This document shows positions 26,082 through 34,726 of a stretch of 64,000 nucleotides of DNA, piece after piece. Made by a program: the position numbers and the translations under genes. Origin of the DNA: Affinirhizobium straminoryzae. Lineage in GTDB: Bacteria; Pseudomonadota; Alphaproteobacteria; Rhizobiales; Rhizobiaceae. A model generated the notes under the pieces. It was not told where the DNA came from. It did no database searches and worked only from the letters and a program-made list of their open reading frames with translations. The stretch is taken from positions 1 through 64,000 of the forward strand of contig NZ_VJMG01000015.1 of the NCBI RefSeq assembly GCF_007004135.1, written 5' to 3'. How positions within the stretch are numbered: position 1 is the first letter of the stretch; the number at the start of each line of letters is the position of its first letter.

Positions 26082-27593
26082 TCATTGTGTGTATCGGTTC
26101 TGGCAGGCCTCGCGCAGAGCTGCCTTCTGGACCTTGCCCATGGTATTGCGCGGCAGTTCCTCGATCACGATGAGCTCGCGGGGCTGCTTGAAGCGCGCGA
26201 GATTGTCTGCGGCCGTGCGTGTGATGGCGCTCAGATCCAGCGTCGCACCGGGCCGGGGCACGAGGAAGGCAAGGACGGCCTCGCCGAAATCCGGATGGGG
26301 GACGCCCACGACAGCGCTTTCCAGGACGCCCGGCTGCTCGTCGAGAAGCATCTCGATTTCGCGCGGATAAATGTTCAGACCACCTGAAATAATGAGATCC
26401 TTGGCGCGACCGACGATCTGCACGTAGCCGCCGGGATCGATGCGTCCGATATCACCGGTGATGAAGAACCCGTTGTCGCGCAGTTCCGCCTTGGTCTTTT
26501 CCGGCATTCCCCAGTATCCCTTGAAGACATTGGGGCCGCGGACTTCGATCATGCCGGTTTCGCCGACGGGAAGAACCGTCCCGGTCTCGGGATCGGTGAT
26601 CAGCAGGTCCACGTCCGGCAGAGGAAAACCGACCGTTCCGGCACGACGCTCGCCCTCGTAGGGGTTCGAGACGGACATGTTGGTTTCCGTCATCCCGTAG
26701 CGCTCGAGAATACGATGGCCCGTGCGCGCTTCGAACTCGACATGCGTCTCGGCCAGAAGCGGTGCAGAGCCGGAGACAAAGAGGCGCATATGCGCGACAA
26801 GATCCCGGTTGAAGCGATCGTCACCGAGGAGACGGGTGTAGAAGGTCGGAACCCCCATCAGCACGCTTGCGTCCGGCAGAAGCCGCAGCATCGCCGGCAG
26901 GTCGAACTTCGGCAGAAAGATCATCGAGGCCTGCGCCATCAGGGTGACGTTGCAGGCCACGAACAGGCCATGCGTATGGAAGATCGGCAAGGCGTGCAGC
27001 AGGACATCACGGCTGCCAAACCGCCAGAGCTCGGCCAGAGTGCGCGCATTGGAGAGAAGGTTGAGATGCGTGAGCATCGCCCCCTTGGAGCGGCCCGTCG
27101 TTCCCGAAGTGTAGAGAAGCGCCGCAAGGTCACTTTCCTCGCGTTCGGCCACGGCAAAGATGCCGGATTGACCGTCTGCTGCATCCGACAGGGAGCCGCG
27201 TCCATCGCCATCCAGCGTCAGCACCATGACGTCGGCGCCGCACCGTTGCTTCAGGTCCACCTCGATGCCCGGGCTGCAGATGACTCCACGTGCGCCACTA
27301 TCCCCGATGAAGTAGTCGAGTTCCGTCAGCGTATAAGCCGTATTCAGGGGCAAAAGCACGATGCCCGCCATGACGCAGGCGGCATAAAGCGCCAGCGCCT
27401 GCGGCGTCTTTTCCACCTGCACGGCAAGCCGGTCGCCCGCTCGAAGGCCGGCCGCGACGAGCACATTGGCCTGTCGGGCGGCAAGCGCGTGAAAGTCGCG
27501 ATAGCGCAGCACCTCTCCCTTTGCGTCGATCAGAAAGGCACCGTCACTGTCACGGCCGGGGGCAAACAGGGTGTCGTAAAGTGGATTGGGCAT
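26082..27593 (-). CDS. matB: Malonyl-CoA synthetase
   Basis: Converts malonate, ATP and CoA to malonyl-CoA, AMP and PPi. A 503-residue acyl-adenylate-forming enzyme, matching the ~504 residues of rhizobial MatB. The P-loop-like LLYTSGTTGRSKGAMLTH, the adenylate motif ILERYGMTETNMSVSNPYEGERRAGTVGFPLPDV and the hinge/catalytic Lys (GRAKDLIISGGLNIYPREIE; LPRNTMGKVQKAAL) are all present. The YGMTETNM and NPYEGERR context is close to MatB rather than other acyl-CoA synthetases. The ATG at 27591-27593 has a weak GAGG upstream; the frame continues upstream without coding character. No malonyl-CoA decarboxylase gene (matA) accompanies it here. Confidence 0.88.
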   Translation of the reverse strand: MPNPLYDTLFAPGRDSDGAFLIDAKGEVLRYRDFHALAARQANVLVAAGLRAGDRLAVQVEKTPQALALYAACVMAGIVLLPLNTAYTLTELDYFIGDSGARGVICSPGIEVDLKQRCGADVMVLTLDGDGRGSLSDAADGQSGIFAVAEREESDLAALLYTSGTTGRSKGAMLTHLNLLSNARTLAELWRFGSRDVLLHALPIFHTHGLFVACNVTLMAQASMIFLPKFDLPAMLRLLPDASVLMGVPTFYTRLLGDDRFNRDLVAHMRLFVSGSAPLLAETHVEFEARTGHRILERYGMTETNMSVSNPYEGERRAGTVGFPLPDVDLLITDPETGTVLPVGETGMIEVRGPNVFKGYWGMPEKTKAELRDNGFFITGDIGRIDPGGYVQIVGRAKDLIISGGLNIYPREIEMLLDEQPGVLESAVVGVPHPDFGEAVLAFLVPRPGATLDLSAITRTAADNLARFKQPRELIVIEELPRNTMGKVQKAALREACQNRYTQ

Positions 27594-27879
27594 GCGTAAA
27601 AACCTCGACTGACTGACGGGACGGTGCCGGGCGATGAACTGGATGGATGGGCGCAACCGCCAATCCGCTGCGGGTCTGGTTCGGGCTCCTGCTGCCCTTT
27701 CCTGGCGTGCGGATTTTGGAAAGAGGCAGACGCGTCGCAATCCGCAGCCATATGACAGACGGGAGCGGCAGGGCGGATAAGGAAAGACCTGAGCCGATCC
27801 GGATCGGCGGGGTGGCACCACGCGCTGGAACCGTGCCTGCTTCGTCTGCCGTTCCGATCCGCCGCACGACCGCACGGAT
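27594..27879. other. Intergenic region between GDSL hydrolase and matB
   Basis: A 286-bp gap without a supported gene. It contains the perfect 16-bp palindrome GCCGATCCGGATCGGC at 27793-27808, lacking a T-run. matB may be read through from the upstream operon or have its own promoter here. Confidence 0.5.
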
Positions 27880-28506
27880 TCAGGCGAGAAGTTCCGGAAT
27901 GCGTTTCAGCACCTCGGCCCAGAGCGCGTATCCGCCCGCATTCAGGTGAATGAAATCGGGCTGATAATAGCGGCCCATCGGCCGGCCGTTTTCGCCGATC
28001 AGACCGCGGGATGCGTCAATGAAATGCGCCTGACCGCTCTCCCCGCACCAGGCTTCGGTCAGCGCGTTGTAGCGATCAACCTCATCGGCATAGATCCAGC
28101 GGGTCGGGCTTTGCTTGGTGCCGAGCACGAAGATCCTTGCAGCCGGAAGCTCTGCACGGATATCGGCCAGCAGCGCCTTCATGTGTTCGAAGGTCGTCTG
28201 ACCTGTCAGGCCATCATTGGCGATGTCGTTTTCACCGAAGTAGAGCACGATGCGTTCCGGCTTCAGCGGGATGAGCAGCTTTTGCAGGTAATGACGACCG
28301 GAAAGGTTCGTGCCGCCGCCGAAGCCAAGATTGACGATGTCCAGCGATTGAAGATCCTGCTGCATTGTTCCCCAGAGGCGGAACGAGGAGGAGCCGTAGA
28401 AGGCAATCGGCCTTTGCGGCAGAGGACCTCGCTGCAACCTGGCCAGGATCGCGACGACATCGTCCTCGAAGCGATTGGTGGCAAGGGGTGTCGGAAATTC
28501 AAACAT
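27880..28506 (-). CDS. SGNH/GDSL-type hydrolase
   Basis: A 208-residue esterase-like enzyme of the SGNH fold. Block I is IAFYGSSSFRLWG (nucleophile Ser), block II NLGFGGGTN (Gly), block III YFGENDIANDG (Asn) and block V PDFIHLNAGGYALWAEVL (Asp and His). No signal peptide is seen, so it acts in the cytoplasm. Its start overlaps the end of the upstream ATPase gene by 8 bp, so it is coupled to the transporter. A role in de-esterifying the imported compound before activation by MatB is attractive but inferred. Confidence 0.85.
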   Translation of the reverse strand: MFEFPTPLATNRFEDDVVAILARLQRGPLPQRPIAFYGSSSFRLWGTMQQDLQSLDIVNLGFGGGTNLSGRHYLQKLLIPLKPERIVLYFGENDIANDGLTGQTTFEHMKALLADIRAELPAARIFVLGTKQSPTRWIYADEVDRYNALTEAWCGESGQAHFIDASRGLIGENGRPMGRYYQPDFIHLNAGGYALWAEVLKRIPELLA

Positions 28507-29485
28507 TGAGCAATTCCTTTTTCGTCATGTCGTCGGCGCGATGGCAGGCGCTGAAGCGGCCCGGTGCGGTTGGCCGCAAGGGCGGAACAACATTTGCGCA
28601 GACATCGACAGCCATCGGGCAGCGGGTGCGGAAGGCGCAGCCGGAGGGCAGGTTGATAGGGCTTGGCGGGTCGCCTTCCAGGGGCGCGCGCTGCCTGCGA
28701 TCTGCCGGGCGCGGACGCGGCACCGATTCAAGCAGGCCCACGGTGTAAGGATGCTGCGGTGCATTGAGCACGGCTGCGGTTTCCCCCGCCTCAACGATAC
28801 GACCGAGATACATGACAGCAATGCGGTTGCTGATATGCGAGACGACGCCGATGTCATGCGAAATGAACAACAACGACAGTTTCATCTCGTCGCGCAGGTC
28901 ACAGAGAAGGTTGATCACCTGCGCCCGGATCGACACATCCAGCGCCGACACGGGTTCATCGGCGACGACGAGGCGCGGACGGGTGGCAAGCGCGCGGGCA
29001 ATGCCCAGACGCTGCCTCTGTCCCCCCGAGAGTTCATGCGGATAGCGCTTTGCCTGATCCGGCCGAAGTCCGACCTTCGACAGCAATTGCAGCACATGGT
29101 CACGTCTTTCCGCAGATGTGCCGATCCGGAAATTGTCCAGCGGTTCGCGCACGATGGCTTCCGCCGTCCAGCGCGGATCGAGCGAGGCGGAGGGATCCTG
29201 GAAGATCATCTGGACGGAGCGGCGCGCCGTGTGCAGATCCCGATTGCCCATGCGGGCAAGATCGCGTCCAAGGAGGTGGACCGCGCCGCTGTCGGGCCGG
29301 TCAAGCCCCATGATCATGCGGCCAAGGGTCGACTTGCCGCAGCCGCTTTCGCCGACCAGCGCCAGCGTTTCACCCGGCGCGATCGACAGGGACACGTCAT
29401 TGACCGCATGCACGGTCTGTCCCTTGCCGGTCTTGAAATGACGCACGAGCTTGTCGGCAACCAGGACATCGGTGTTGTCACTCAT
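28499..29485 (-). CDS. Peptide/nickel-type ABC transporter ATP-binding protein (DppF/OppF type)
   Basis: A 328-residue ATPase. Walker A LVGESGCGKSTLGRMI, Q-loop MIFQDPSASLDPRWT, signature HELSGGQRQRLGIARALATRPRLVVADEPVSALD and the C-terminal OppF extension with CAFRTRCPMAVDVC. The ATG at 29483-29485 overlaps the DppD stop by 4 bp. It pairs with the next ATPase to drive the DppB/DppC permeases. Confidence 0.93.
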   Translation of the reverse strand: MSDNTDVLVADKLVRHFKTGKGQTVHAVNDVSLSIAPGETLALVGESGCGKSTLGRMIMGLDRPDSGAVHLLGRDLARMGNRDLHTARRSVQMIFQDPSASLDPRWTAEAIVREPLDNFRIGTSAERRDHVLQLLSKVGLRPDQAKRYPHELSGGQRQRLGIARALATRPRLVVADEPVSALDVSIRAQVINLLCDLRDEMKLSLLFISHDIGVVSHISNRIAVMYLGRIVEAGETAAVLNAPQHPYTVGLLESVPRPRPADRRQRAPLEGDPPSPINLPSGCAFRTRCPMAVDVCANVVPPLRPTAPGRFSACHRADDMTKKELLNV

Positions 29486-30501
29486 GCGGAGACCTCCACG
29501 GTGAGGTTTGCGGTCGGCCCGTAGGCAACCGGCTGGTCGCAACGGGAGGCATGGCCGAAGGTTACGTCACGCCAGTCCGGCGTGCGGCGGTGGCAGCTGT
29601 CCACGGCAAACCGGCAGCGTTCAACGAAACTGCACCCCTGCGGCAGCATGGAAAAGCTCGGCACATTGCCCGGGATTTCTTCCAGCCGCCCACGGCTCGG
29701 TTCCCCCGGCACGAACTCGGCCGTGGCCCGCAACAGGCCTGCGGTATAGCCATGCGCAGGATTTTCAAAGATGGCATGAACGGGACCGCGCTCCACCAGC
29801 GAACCGGCATACATGACCGCAACATCATCAGCGATTTCGGCGACTACGCCGAGATCGTGGGTGATGAAGATGATCGCGGTGCCGAATTCCCGTTGCAGTT
29901 CGGAGAGCAGCCACAGGATCTGTGCCTGAACCGTCACGTCAAGGGCGGTGGTCGGCTCGTCGGCAATCAGCAGCCGTGGCCGGCAGATGAGCGCCATCGC
30001 AATCATGATACGCTGGCGCATGCCGCCGGAGAGCTGGTGCGGATAGGCACTCATGCGGCGGGCAGCATCGGGAATGCGAACACGCTGCAAAACCTCCATG
30101 ACACGGGCATTGGCGGCGCGCGTGCTCATCTTCTCGTGCAGAAGCAGCGCCTCGCGCAGCTGAAAGCCGATGGTGAGCGCTGGATTGAGCGACGACATCG
30201 GATCCTGGAAGATCATCGCCATCAGCGAGCCACGCAGACGCGACATTTCACGTTCGTCGCACTCCAGCAGGTTGATGCCATCCAGACGCATGGTCGCCGC
30301 CTCGACATGGGCGCTGCCCGGCTTGTGCAGCCCCATGATGGAAGTGGCGGTAACGCTCTTACCCGAGCCGGATTCGCCCACGAGACAGAGCGTCTTGCCG
30401 GCCTCGAGATCGAATGAGACATCGCGCACGGCCCGGATCGCACCACCCGCCCCGAAACCGACGGTGAGATTGCGAATACTGAGGAAAGGTTCGCCTGTCA
30501 T
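29482..30501 (-). CDS. Peptide/nickel-type ABC transporter ATP-binding protein (DppD/OppD type)
   Basis: A 339-residue ATPase. Walker [40 protein letters not shown], signature [42 protein letters not shown] and the C-terminal [21 protein letters not shown] cysteine pattern. It overlaps the DppC gene by 4 bp and the DppF gene by 4 bp. The ligand class cannot be told from the ATPase. Confidence 0.93.
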
Positions 30502-31355
30502 GACGCCCTCCTTGCGGCGAGCCGCGGATCGAAACGGTCACGCAGTCTGTCGCCGAGAATGTTGATGGACAGCACCATGATGGACAGCAGCAGGCCCGGA
30601 AAGGCGATGATCCATGGTGCCAGACGGAAATACTCCTTGCCGCTGGCAATCACGTTGCCCCAACTCGGAACGTCCGGCGGCGTGCCGACGCCGAGGAAGC
30701 TCAAGGCTGCCTCGGAAAGGATTGCAGCCGCGCAAACATAGGTGGCCTGGACGCTCAGCATGCCGATCGCGTTCGGGACGATATGGCGCAGCAGGATCTT
30801 CGGCGTGGATGAGCCAACGGAAATCGCGGCGGTGATGAAGGGCAGTTCGCGGATGCTGAGCACCACGCTACGCATCAGGCGGGCAGTGCGCGGGATCTCC
30901 GGCACCGAGATGGCGATGATGACGGTCACCAGACCGCCCCCCAGGACGGATACGAGGGCAATGGCCAGCAGGATGCCGGGAATGGCCATCAATCCATCGG
31001 CAAGGCGCATGACGATGCGGTCAACCCAGTTGAAATAGCCGGCCACGACACCGAGCGTGCCGCCGATCGCCAGCACGACGATGGCCGTGCACAGGCCTAC
31101 CGTGACGGAGTTGCGCGCTCCCGATACCGTGCGCACGAAGACATCACGACCGAGATTGTCGGTCCCGAACCAGGCAATGGCGCTTGGCGGTTTCAGACGC
31201 ATCATCGGATTGAGATCATTGCCGAGACCGAAAACAAGCGGACCGAAGATGGCCATCAGGATCACGACCGCCAGAGCCAGCAGGCTCAGCGACACCGCAA
31301 CGCCCGGACGCGCCGGTTTCGGCTTCGAGAGGGCGGGAGAAGAGACCGTCGTCAT
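30498..31355 (-). CDS. Peptide-type ABC transporter permease (DppC type)
   Basis: A 285-residue inner-membrane permease with the OppC N-terminal segment (VAVSLSLLALAVVILMAIFGP), the WFGTDNLGRDVFVRTVSGARNSVTVG motif and the inner loop SIRELPFITAAISVGSSTPKILLRHIVPNAIGML. About six membrane spans. Overlaps both neighbours by 4 bp. Confidence 0.93.
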   Translation of the reverse strand: MTTVSSPALSKPKPARPGVAVSLSLLALAVVILMAIFGPLVFGLGNDLNPMMRLKPPSAIAWFGTDNLGRDVFVRTVSGARNSVTVGLCTAIVVLAIGGTLGVVAGYFNWVDRIVMRLADGLMAIPGILLAIALVSVLGGGLVTVIIAISVPEIPRTARLMRSVVLSIRELPFITAAISVGSSTPKILLRHIVPNAIGMLSVQATYVCAAAILSEAALSFLGVGTPPDVPSWGNVIASGKEYFRLAPWIIAFPGLLLSIMVLSINILGDRLRDRFDPRLAARRAS

Positions 31356-32293
31356 TGGCGCACCCGCGGATCAAAAAGAGCATAGGACAGGTCGACCAGC
31401 AGGTTGACCGCGATCAGGACAAAAGAAAACACGATGAGAACACCCTGAACGACCGGATAGTCACGCGTCAGGATCGCGTCGACGGTCAGTCGCCCCATGC
31501 CGGGAATGTTGAAGACCGACTCCGTGATCACCACTCCTCCGAGCAGTGCGGCAAAGCTGGTGCCGATAACGGTCACGACGGGAACGCCGATATTCTTGAG
31601 CGCATGCACGATCAGGATGCGCCGGTTGTTGGCGCCCTTGGCGCGGGCAGTGCGGATGTAATCCTCCGCCAGCACCTCCAGCATGGTTGCGCGGGTAATG
31701 CGCGCAACCAGCGCGGAAAACAGGAAGGACAGCGTGATCGACGGCAGTGTGATGCTGCGCAGACAGTTCCAGAAACCTGAGGACAGGGGCTTGTAGCCCT
31801 GAACCGGCAGCCAGCCGGCGCGCAGTGCAAAGAGATCCACCAGCACGTAACCGATCACGAAGACAGGCACCGAGAAACCGACGACGGACGCGACGATGAG
31901 GAAGGTGTCGATGGCTGAACCCGCGCGCCATGCGCCCCATACCCCCATCGGCACGGCGATGAGAACGGAGAGTATCAGCGTGGAAACTGCAAGTACGGCC
32001 GTCGGCTCGACACGCTGAAGAATGAGCTTCAGCACGGGGAAGCCGGAATAGACCGACTGACCAAGGTCGAGATGCGCGACATTCGACAGATAGAGGAACA
32101 GTTGCTCGAGGAGCGGCCTGTCGAGGAACAGACGTTCGCGAATAGCTTCGATCTGGTCGCGCGTGGCATTCTCGCCGGCAATCAGTGCGGCGGGATCGCC
32201 AGGACCGATATGCAGCAGAAGAAAAACCGTAATCAGGACGATGAACGCGATGGGGATGACCGACAGAAGCCGCCGGACGACGAAATTGGACAT
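31352..32293 (-). CDS. Peptide-type ABC transporter permease (DppB type)
   Basis: A 313-residue permease beginning MSNFVVRRLLSVIPIAFIVLITVFLLLHIGPGDPAALIAGENATRDQIEAIRERLFLDRPL, the classic OppB/DppB opening. It has the EAA-like loop (LAEDYIRTARAKGANNRRILIVHALKN) and the ending LVDLSYALFDPRVRQ. It lies 56 bp after the binding-protein gene. Confidence 0.94.
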   Translation of the reverse strand: MSNFVVRRLLSVIPIAFIVLITVFLLLHIGPGDPAALIAGENATRDQIEAIRERLFLDRPLLEQLFLYLSNVAHLDLGQSVYSGFPVLKLILQRVEPTAVLAVSTLILSVLIAVPMGVWGAWRAGSAIDTFLIVASVVGFSVPVFVIGYVLVDLFALRAGWLPVQGYKPLSSGFWNCLRSITLPSITLSFLFSALVARITRATMLEVLAEDYIRTARAKGANNRRILIVHALKNIGVPVVTVIGTSFAALLGGVVITESVFNIPGMGRLTVDAILTRDYPVVQGVLIVFSFVLIAVNLLVDLSYALFDPRVRQ

Positions 32294-32349
32294 GCATGCC
32301 TCCCGAGGACGGCAGGCGCCACCCGTCGGGGTGACGCCGCCGCTTCATG

Positions 32350-33924
32350 TCACTGCTTTTTCTCGATGTTCCAGTAGAGCTGCAGCGGACTGTCGATGAT
32401 GCCGGAGACGGACTTGCTCCATCCCGCCACGCCATAATGCTGGCCCATGGGGATAAAGGTGACGATCTCGTTCGACCGCTCCTGCAGTTTGATTGCTGCC
32501 GCCTTGCGCGCGGCCTGATCGCCGGCCAGAAGGAAGGCCTTCCAGCGGGCCTGCAGTTCCTCATCGCAGGGCCAGCCGACGAACGCCTTGTCGCAGGCGC
32601 CGGTGACGTATGGATTGGTCAGCGGATCCATCATGGCGTCGCCGCCAAAGGCGGTGAGGAACATGTTCCAGCCACCTTCTGCGGGCGTGCCCTTGTTGTT
32701 GCGCCGGGAGAACATCGTGGCGAGGTCGATCTGGCGGTCATCCACCGTAAAGCCCGCCTTGCGCAGGGCCTGCACGAGCACTGTCCCCATGTCACGCTGG
32801 AACTGCTGATCGGTGGGATGCAGGAAGGTGATCGGCGTCCCGTTGTAGCCTGCCTCCTTGAGAAGCGCCTTGGCCTTCTCGGGATCCGGCTTCATGTAGC
32901 GGTCGCTGTTGACATCGGTCTCGTAGGGCGCATCGCACATGAAGATCGCGGCGCAGACCTTGTAGAGATCCTTGCGATCGCCGAGCAGCGTCGTCATGAA
33001 GTCCTGCTGGTTCAGGGCCAGCTGAACTGCCTGACGCACCTTGATGTCGTTGAAGGGCGGCTGCGTATGGTTAAGAACCACCTGCAGGCTTCGACCAAGA
33101 AGCGGCTTGGGTGCGACGGCAAAATTCTTGTCGGCCTCGACGATCGGAAGCTGATCATAGGGAATTTCGGTGACGAAATCGATCTCGCCGGCGAGAAGCG
33201 CATTCACTGCACTCGTATCATCGGGGATGGTGATGCGCTCGATCCGGTCCACCTTGGCGATCTTGCCACCTGCCAGATTGCTCGGAGGCTCGCTGCGGGG
33301 CACATAGCCCTTGAACTTCTCGACAACGAACTTCACGCCCGGCTGCCACTCGACCAGCTTGAACGGGCCCGAACCGATCAGCGCAGGAAGCTTCTCACCG
33401 ATCGGCGTCTTGGCAATGCGCTCCGGCATGATGAAAAGCGGATAGGCCGTCATGCGACCAAGCCCGTTGAGGAGCTGCGCAAAGGGTTCCTTCAGCGTGA
33501 TCCGGAAAGAGGTCGCGCCCGTCGCCTCGATCTTGTCCAGACGCTTGGCAATTTCCTGACCCAGGCTGTCCTTGCCCATCCAGCGGTTGACGGACGCAAT
33601 GACGTCTGCGGACGTGACAGGCGCTCCATCGTGGAAGATGAGACCGCTGCGCAGCGTGAAATCATAGACCTTGCCGTCCGCGCTGACAGAATAGGTATCC
33701 ACCATCTGAGGCTTGACGTCGAAATTGGCGTCCATGGCAAACAGGGTGTCCCAAAGCAGGTAGGACATGTCGCGCATCGGGTAGTTGGTGCTGAGCAGCG
33801 GATCCATCTGCTGGATGTCGCCAACAGCGCGAATCCGCAGCACGCTCTCGGCATGCGCTGCCACTCCCACACCGAACGACAGGACGGTAGCGGCAGCTAG
33901 AGTCTTGATTAGTTTCGATAACAT
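32350..33924 (-). CDS. Peptide-type ABC transporter substrate-binding protein
   Basis: A 524-residue periplasmic protein of solute-binding family 5. The signal peptide MLSKLIKTLAAATVLSFGVGVAAHA is followed by ESVLRIRAVGDIQQMDPLLSTNYPMRDMSYLLWDTLFAMD, the family N-terminal signature. The interior contains YDFTLRSGLIFHDGAPVTSADVIASVNRWM. It is the first gene of the transporter operon and is divergent from the MatR-like gene. Family 5 proteins bind peptides but also many other ligands (opines, glycosides, nickel, esters), so the name does not fix the ligand. The regulator and matB nearby point to a malonyl-containing or malonate-yielding compound. Confidence 0.92.
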   Translation of the reverse strand: MLSKLIKTLAAATVLSFGVGVAAHAESVLRIRAVGDIQQMDPLLSTNYPMRDMSYLLWDTLFAMDANFDVKPQMVDTYSVSADGKVYDFTLRSGLIFHDGAPVTSADVIASVNRWMGKDSLGQEIAKRLDKIEATGATSFRITLKEPFAQLLNGLGRMTAYPLFIMPERIAKTPIGEKLPALIGSGPFKLVEWQPGVKFVVEKFKGYVPRSEPPSNLAGGKIAKVDRIERITIPDDTSAVNALLAGEIDFVTEIPYDQLPIVEADKNFAVAPKPLLGRSLQVVLNHTQPPFNDIKVRQAVQLALNQQDFMTTLLGDRKDLYKVCAAIFMCDAPYETDVNSDRYMKPDPEKAKALLKEAGYNGTPITFLHPTDQQFQRDMGTVLVQALRKAGFTVDDRQIDLATMFSRRNNKGTPAEGGWNMFLTAFGGDAMMDPLTNPYVTGACDKAFVGWPCDEELQARWKAFLLAGDQAARKAAAIKLQERSNEIVTFIPMGQHYGVAGWSKSVSGIIDSPLQLYWNIEKKQ

Positions 33925-34033
33925 TCTTGGCTCCTCCCACGAACCCGGAAACGAACGAGGTCTGCTGTGATTGCATACCGTCGCTGAACAATGCTAAAAC
34001 AGTTCATGACGCACGAGCATGCGGATGTCAATC

Positions 34034-34047
34034 TCGTGTATACAAAA
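34034..34047. promoter_or_regulatory. MatR-like operator between binding-protein and GntR genes
   Basis: The minus strand reads TTTTGTATACACGA around the palindrome TGTATACA (34037-34044). From memory, the reported MatR site of Rhizobium leguminosarum bv. trifolii is TCTTGTA-TACACGA, a 13/14 match. A -35-like TTGACA for the leftward operon (minus strand, 34026-34031) adjoins it. Confidence 0.72.
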
Positions 34048-34060
34048 ATTAAAACTGGGT

Positions 34061-34726
34061 ATGCTCAGCATGAATGTGAAATCCAAAAGTGCACCGTCCC
34101 TGCGCGATCGTATCGAGGACGCCATTGTCTCAGGCACGTTCAGGCCGGGTGATCGACTGGAAGAACAAAGCCTTGCCGAACAGTATGGCGTGTCCCGCAC
34201 GCCTGTACGCGAGGCGTTGCGGCAGCTTCAGGAGGCGGGACTTGTGGAGATAAAGCCGCGGCGCGGCGCGACGGTGAGCAAGGTCTCGCCAGCCGACCTC
34301 ATCCACATGTTCGAGGTGATGGGCGGGCTCGAAGGCATGGCCGGGCGACTGGCGGCAAGGCGGCTGGACGAGACCTCGCGGCAGGAGATCCTCGCCTGCC
34401 ACGAAGCGTGCCGCACAGCCGTCAACCAGGGCTCGGACGCCTACTACTACGAGAACGAGCGCTTTCACATGGCCATCTATCGCGCCAGCGCCAATCCGTT
34501 TCTCGAAGAGCAGGCGCGTGCGCTGCATCGACGCCTCAAGCCGTATCGTCGCATCCAGTTGCGCTCGCTGAACCGCATCGAGCAATCGTTTGCGGAACAT
34601 GACAGGGTCGTCAAGGCGATCCTGGCCGGCAACGGGGCCGATGCAGAACAGGCACTGTGGGATCACATCACGATCCAGGCCGATCGTTTCCATGACTTCC
34701 TGGCAGGTCTGGCACGCGACACCTGA
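34061..34726 (+). CDS. matR: GntR/FCD-family regulator, MatR-like
   Basis: A 221-residue FadR-subfamily regulator. The winged helix is APSLRDRIEDAIVSGTFRPGDRLEEQSLAEQYGVSRTPVREALRQLQEAGLVEIKPRRGATVSKV, followed by an all-helical FCD ligand domain with metal/acid-binding His residues (YENERFHMAIYRASANP; FAEHDRVVKAIL). A second ATG at 34070 is equally possible, as neither has a strong ribosome site. The symbol is proposed because the gene faces an operator matching the known MatR site and matB lies in the linked operon. The ligand would be malonate or malonyl-CoA. Identity with MatR is inferred, not shown. Confidence 0.75.
   Translation: MLSMNVKSKSAPSLRDRIEDAIVSGTFRPGDRLEEQSLAEQYGVSRTPVREALRQLQEAGLVEIKPRRGATVSKVSPADLIHMFEVMGGLEGMAGRLAARRLDETSRQEILACHEACRTAVNQGSDAYYYENERFHMAIYRASANPFLEEQARALHRRLKPYRRIQLRSLNRIEQSFAEHDRVVKAILAGNGADAEQALWDHITIQADRFHDFLAGLARDT

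Follow-up and report, generated by a model that had tools for sequence, protein, structure and literature searches.

What does a bacterium take up with an operon that joins the malonyl-CoA synthase gene matB to an Opp-type ATP-binding cassette (ABC) importer and a GDSL hydrolase? The operon lies in a 64,000-nucleotide (nt) stretch of the Affinirhizobium straminoryzae genome (GCF_007004135.1, NZ_VJMG01000015.1, positions 1–64,000; hereafter the window, whose positions serve as coordinates below). Rhizobial matBC or matRABC loci are described with the carrier MatC in PMC12303837, PMC5237526 and PMC5793154. On balance, the operon in the window, under MatR-type control, probably imports a malonyl conjugate and feeds malonate to central metabolism. 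The imported compound would be a small malonyl ester, with plants or algae as its most likely makers, from which the cytoplasmic GDSL hydrolase would cleave malonate. MatB would then convert malonate to malonyl-CoA, and MatA, in this strain presumably supplied from a second matAB locus on contig C60, would decarboxylate malonyl-CoA to acetyl-CoA. Sequence comparison establishes the gene content, the inheritance as a unit, the absence of matA here against its presence in six other loci, and the mat-type regulator with its putative operator; the ligand and the hydrolysis of a malonyl ester are proposed from the same comparisons. Of the model in the initial annotation (uptake of a malonate ester or amide, a hydrolase, then MatB), an inherited unit with mat-type regulator and operator stood, while the malonyl ligand is a candidate only and the GDSL hydrolase points to an ester.

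Gene content and inheritance of the operon

The genes from importer to matB occupy 33924 to 26082 and are read from the minus strand, and the regulator gene diverges from about 34070 (Table 1). Neighbouring genes overlap or are separated by at most 60 nt, the sole exception being the 283 nt between the hydrolase gene and matB. The initial annotation had described matB near a MatR-like gene, a five-gene peptide-type importer and a GDSL hydrolase overlapping it. The first is borne out by the NCBIfam score and the GntR and FCD domains, the second by all five domain assignments, which make up the full Opp/Dpp set (binding protein, two permeases and two oligo_HPY ATPases), and the third by an 8-nt overlap with the second ATPase gene. 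MatB belongs to its family by both curated score and conserved motifs, and its nearest solved structure is the malonyl-CoA synthetase 4fuq, presumably from R. palustris. Promoter and terminator scans gave signals no more numerous than in shuffles.

With the GDSL protein as query, the genome collection yielded 33 loci. Four of them encode counterparts of the window's regulator, all five importer proteins, the hydrolase and MatB at 76–93% identity: L025 (Rhizobium sp. RU36D), L026, L027 (Allorhizobium sonneratiae) and L029 (Martelella lutilitoris). The interval between the hydrolase gene and matB in these four holds a gene for 419 amino acids, whose product in L025 is malonyl-CoA decarboxylase (Pfam, 314 bits). 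Other searches added two carriers, R. rhizoryzae (G204, plasmid NZ_CP049249.1) and R. rosettiformans plasmid p1, where the genes are annotated as malonyl-CoA decarboxylase and malonyl-CoA synthase. The gene set picked out in the initial annotation thus recurs in six other loci, each of them also with matA, which always lies between the hydrolase gene and matB. No conserved flanking gene was found among the seven loci (best identity 46%, mostly unrelated ABC ATPases), the flanks compared being 2.7–11 kb on one side and 3.6–7 kb on the other in six loci and about 15 kb on each side in the window. Because gene order is kept in seven loci with unlike flanks, the gene set, as judged from these comparisons, is an inherited unit that includes malonyl-CoA decarboxylase (hereafter the module).

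Of 394 genomes sampled within the family, 6 have the GDSL protein at E values up to 1e-60: the window's, G204, two apparently corresponding to L026 and L029, and two with a 54–55% homologue. In a sample of 385 genomes from the class, searched at E values up to 1e-40, the window's genome alone has it. Among 57 same-genus genomes, 2 have the binding protein at E values up to 1e-180.

Table 1 Features of the operon in the window
Feature	Position	Strand	Evidence
matB, malonyl-CoA synthase, 504 amino acids	26082..27596	-	NCBIfam NF005702, 768 bits against a cut-off of 558; PDB 4fuq, 627 bits
283-nt spacer, place of matA in six other loci	27597..27879	-	only about 20 nt beside matB resemble relatives
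GDSL/SGNH hydrolase, predicted cytoplasmic, 208 amino acids	27880..28506	-	Pfam PF13472; S-G-N-H blocks invariant in 20 sequences
Importer ATPase 2, OppF-like	28499..29542	-	ABC_tran and oligo_HPY
Importer ATPase 1, OppD-like	29482..30501	-	ABC_tran and oligo_HPY
Importer permease C	30498..31355	-	BPD_transp_1
Importer permease B	31352..32293	-	BPD_transp_1 and its N-terminal domain
Solute-binding protein, family 5, signal-peptide-like start (by eye)	32350..33924	-	SBP_bac_5, 259 bits
Putative MatR-type operator, 2 nt ahead of minus-strand TTGACA	34034..34047	.	site comparison, shuffles
MatR-type GntR/FCD regulator	34070..34726	+	GntR and FCD; 56–57% identity to rhizobial mat-locus regulators

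Apparent loss of matA and the second matAB locus

No malonyl-CoA decarboxylase gene was found in the window, against six of six other loci of the same operon. The initial annotation had seen matA and matC as missing, with the importer and hydrolase in their place. Both genes are indeed absent from the window; since the six other loci carry matA inside the operon alongside importer and hydrolase, the idea of a stand-in for matA was rejected, and matA was in all likelihood not replaced but lost. When aligned with L025, L026, L027 and L029, the similarity of the window's DNA breaks off about 35 nt short of the GDSL gene's end and restarts about 20 nt ahead of matB (L025, L026 and L027) or just within it (L029). 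About 20 nt of the spacer resemble the 3' end of matA, and against its own genome the spacer matched itself and, weakly, one stretch of about 50 nt. Deletion of matA in the window's line appears the simplest reading, and an assembly fault is possible. A MatB start at 27875 was rejected, as the sequence upstream of 27616 is unmatched in four relatives; the likely start is 27596.

The initial annotation had suggested locating matA in the rest of the genome. The genome's one malonyl-CoA decarboxylase gene lies on contig C60, and after it comes another matB, which shares 60% identity with that of the window. The operon's decarboxylase gene is the only one in 5/5 other carrier genomes searched whole (G204, G873–G876), matched in each as two pieces of one gene; R. 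rosettiformans was covered by its plasmid only. The module's copies form one clade in the MatB tree (7 of 23 rows, support 100/100) and in the MatA tree (6 of 22 rows, 99/99, with a program warning of long branches). Both lie nearest to the Pseudooceanicola and Pseudosulfitobacter copies and are separate from a rhizobial clade to which C60 belongs, the sister position of Pseudooceanicola being weak (85/79 for MatB, 82/77 for MatA). From its placement in the tree, therefore, the window's matB is evidently not a recent copy of the C60 matB.

At the end of C60 (L002 10746–10845), a near-palindrome that was found nowhere else in the genome lies 159 nt upstream of matA. In sister species matR occupies roughly this place, where no regulator was seen on C60. 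At this contig end matR may be lost or unassembled. An FCD regulator on contig C117 was considered as the missing matR of C60 and dropped on regulator identities, the matA-adjoining regulators of three same-genus genomes being 55–57% identical to the window's regulator and 32–35% to that of C117. A C125 fragment considered as a neighbour of C60 was judged from its orientation to be probably non-adjoining.

Regulator and operator

A regulator start at 34019 was rejected, since it disagrees with the annotation of a relative and would make the conserved operator part of the coding sequence. The start at 34070 gives 218 amino acids, equal to the length annotated in R. rosettiformans, and places the operator in the divergent intergenic region. 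The regulator groups with MatR by its GntR and FCD domains, by its closeness to matA-adjoining regulators and by the operator between divergent genes. With the module's own regulators and Pseudooceanicola left aside, the closest regulators found are the divergent regulators of mat loci: R. ruizarguesonis TA1 (56.3%; a locus of regulator, matA, matB and SLC13 carrier), Rhizobium sp. BT04 (56.8%), S. meliloti (57.3%) and the three same-genus genomes (55–57%). The next-best match by E value in the window's genome is 32% identical (E 1.6e-18), with short matches in the DNA-binding part of up to 47%. The regulator tree unites those of the module in a single clade (96/90), to which the regulator of the Pseudooceanicola importer locus attaches (100/98).

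The predicted operator, TTTTGTATACACGA, is alike at 13 of 14 bases to TCTTGTATACACGA, which we take to be the MatR operator site and which the matR–matA gap of R. ruizarguesonis carries exactly; the initial annotation had already placed an operator at 34034–34047, and the corrected regulator start makes it intergenic. The operator of MatR and its response to malonate were reportedly described by Lee et al. in 2000. In all eight importer loci (the seven module loci and Pseudooceanicola) the operator sits 2 nt before TTGAC, an arrangement found in 0 of 2000 shuffles of each, a result flattered by a consensus drawn up after the sites were seen; it occurs once within the window. The operator lies 3 nt before TTGAC in 7/7 rhizobial mat loci (C60, L079–L081, L108–L110) and in four of seven further mat loci (Microvirga, 14/14; Pseudosulfitobacter, 13 and 11; Pseudooceanicola, 12), the other three (Marinovum, Mameliella and Paracoccus) having an operator score of 11 without TTGAC. 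The 14-base pattern alone, at 3 mismatches, gave three sites against a shuffle mean of 1.15, with as many in 9 of 100 shuffles; chance being possible at that level, the case for the operator rests on the single-mismatch site and its position. We infer that the regulator would respond to malonate or malonyl-CoA.

Operator-like palindromes occur elsewhere in the genome at C117:23373–23386, C10:34287–34300 and C100:29452–29465. Since those on C117 and C100 have other FCD regulators nearby, a core of the TGTATACA type is no specific mark of MatR.

Candidate ligand and alternative explanations

No signal peptide was seen by eye in the GDSL hydrolase, and hydrolysis therefore likely follows import. 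Its Ser, Gly, Asn and His blocks, among which the catalytic residues of GDSL/SGNH enzymes are assigned, are invariant in 20 sequences, as are Lys131, Arg136 and Trp137, which, at a guess, might hold a free carboxylate. The structure model has a mean predicted local distance difference test (pLDDT) score of 91.8. The enzyme type favours an ester over an amide as substrate. In Terrarubrum, a 56% identical binding protein and the permeases are followed by an alpha/beta hydrolase in the place of GDSL; the exchange of one hydrolase for another next to this importer suggests that cleavage is part of how the imported ligand is used. Pseudooceanicola has the regulator, operator, importer and GDSL gene, followed by TRAP carrier genes, with no matAB in the 17 kb covered; its matAB lies on a separate contig, beside a second regulator of the same kind and TRAP genes. 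That the importer locus keeps this set although matAB lies elsewhere speaks for uptake of a malonyl conjugate. Many flavonoids and other plant products are stored as malonyl conjugates, and the relatives with the complete set suggest consumption of malonyl-tagged compounds like those of plants, the ligand being a candidate.

Several points besides the flattered shuffle result weigh against a malonyl conjugate. The matA deletion is known from one assembly only, and palindromes similar to the operator precede other FCD regulators, for example on C117. Asp429 of the binding protein, which is 20–24% identical to DppA, OppA and GsiB, aligns with the DppA/OppA Asp to which the N-terminus of the peptide binds, and an amine-bearing ligand or true peptide may thus be possible; its equivalent is kept in the module, Pseudooceanicola and Bosea binding proteins, not in that of Terrarubrum. 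Bosea has the binding protein, permeases and GDSL gene with no matAB beside them. GDSL proteins 55–58% identical to the window's sit in Agrobacterium sugar-acid clusters, which disfavours a strictly malonyl-specific GDSL family. In 21 loci (L031–L051) the GDSL protein is 53–58% identical, with an ABC ATPase about the same distance away on the other strand; in the two of this type that were opened (L034 and pAtC58), the GDSL gene lies beside genes for 2-keto-3-deoxygalactonokinase, an MR/MLE enzyme, a DHDPS-family protein and a sugar importer.

On Agrobacterium fabrum pAtC58 (L075 1–10648), SMP-30 and sugar ABC genes accompany the GDSL homologue together with the kinase, MR/MLE and DHDPS-family genes, and the homologue might serve a sugar-acid pathway as esterase or lactonase. 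In Bosea (L052 10926–11669), the GDSL gene is followed by a gene of the Asp/Glu/hydantoin-racemase family, which includes arylmalonate decarboxylase.

The sugar-acid clusters and the Bosea locus speak for co-regulation without a shared molecule. Importer and hydrolase would then serve some other acylated compound from plants, a sugar ester for example, and matAB would be linked to them only through malonate as a habitat signal. With matAB accompanying importer and GDSL gene in six loci of unlike flanks, we regard this as improbable, though the most serious rival. Less probable again is an importer for free malonate or a malonate precursor, with the hydrolase in a side role. MatC_N, the domain of the MatC carrier, was not found in the window's genome; it adjoins matAB in the three same-genus genomes searched that have the other mat locus. 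Among five other carriers, it was absent from three and borderline in two (G204, 22.8 and 22.6 bits; G875, 21.4), the cut-off of 23 being reached by one borderline match only when in-frame neighbours were included. An importer for free malonate would fit this lack of clear MatC_N matches, and the absence from the window's genome also favours import of a malonyl conjugate; against free malonate, all seven loci retain the GDSL gene and Terrarubrum retains a hydrolase, and we know of no Opp-type family-5 binding proteins for small dicarboxylates. MatB enzymes also accept methylmalonate, and the released acid could be this or another substituted malonate; malonyl-CoA decarboxylase being part of the operon in six loci, we think this quite unlikely. 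That an ordinary peptide importer lies beside matB by chance, as its Opp/Dpp-type family and the retained Asp429 might suggest, is highly improbable, since the seven loci keep one gene order while their flanks differ and a mat-type operator lies ahead of the importer genes.

Relation to other mat loci

The operon in the window differs from known mat loci in its importer and hydrolase; the underlying mat locus is already known. With the matRABC loci of Rhizobium leguminosarum and R. ruizarguesonis it shares matB, a divergent MatR-type regulator (56%) and the same operator before the first gene, matA being shared by the six other loci; matRABC has the SLC13 carrier MatC, whereas the window has the five-gene importer and GDSL hydrolase and has lost matA. 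The Sinorhizobium meliloti GntR-TRAP-matAB locus resembles the module in its carrier genes between regulator and matAB, its regulator type (57%) and its operator, but has a TRAP carrier and no hydrolase. Opp/Dpp/Gsi importers have the same five-gene domain set, from which the window's is set apart by its distant binding protein, mat-type control and coupled hydrolase. In Pseudosulfitobacter, matR-matAB likewise adjoins an Opp-type importer and the matAB genes fall in the same clade; its binding protein is 24% identical, and gamma-glutamyltransferase and M20 peptidase genes stand in place of GDSL.

Twelve plasmid regions, hand-picked from match lists and thus no sample for rates, were opened. 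An SLC13 carrier was found in four (L108, L109, L117, L118), a TRAP carrier in one (L110), an Opp-type importer in three of one genus (L111, L113, L114), gamma-glutamyltransferase and M20 peptidase being seen in two of the three, and amidases in two (L112, L115). Of the remaining two, L119 has MadLM with carboxylesterase, TonB receptor and beta-glucosidase, and in L116 matA looks broken. More tentatively than the reading of the operon itself, we suggest that matA-matB might be a portable alphaproteobacterial cassette joined to varied uptake systems and hydrolases for malonyl conjugates: GDSL and Opp importer in the window; amidases in Marinovum and Mameliella; gamma-glutamyltransferase, M20 peptidase and Opp importer in Pseudosulfitobacter; carboxylesterase and beta-glucosidase in Novosphingobium. 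On that view, no importer-coupled system for malonyl esters, for example plant malonylglucosides, would have been described before the window's operon.

In the literature searched, whose coverage leaves out most subscription journals, no publication on the ABC-GDSL-mat operon was recognised and no account of soil-bacterial use of the malonyl part of conjugates was found. With its binding protein, hydrolase and regulator, the operon makes bacterial use of malonyl conjugates testable, and it offers a candidate malonyl esterase and a candidate malonate sensor. If correct, import of a malonyl conjugate would account for mat-type genes in bacteria where no MatC carrier was found. Hesperetin induces matBC in R. 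leguminosarum 3841 (PMC5793154), and free malonate competes at succinate dehydrogenase (PMC5237526).

Among the other architectures, Pseudosulfitobacter plasmids carry matR-matAB beside the Opp-type importer, gamma-glutamyltransferase and M20 peptidase genes at L113 1–13514 and L114 1–11692. Amidase-family genes, possibly for malonamate-like amides, follow matAB in Marinovum (L112 6182–14332) and Mameliella (L115 8192–13383). The broken-looking matA lies on a Leisingera thetidis plasmid (L116 8811–9831), where its annotation is split into overlapping pieces and an IS5 transposase is close by. A Novosphingobium capsulatum plasmid (L119, NZ_CP140001.1, 1138–17140) carries beta-glucosidase, alpha/beta hydrolase, BktB, matA, TonB receptor, carboxylesterase, matB, GntR and MadLM genes, which together look like a malonyl-glucoside utilisation cluster.

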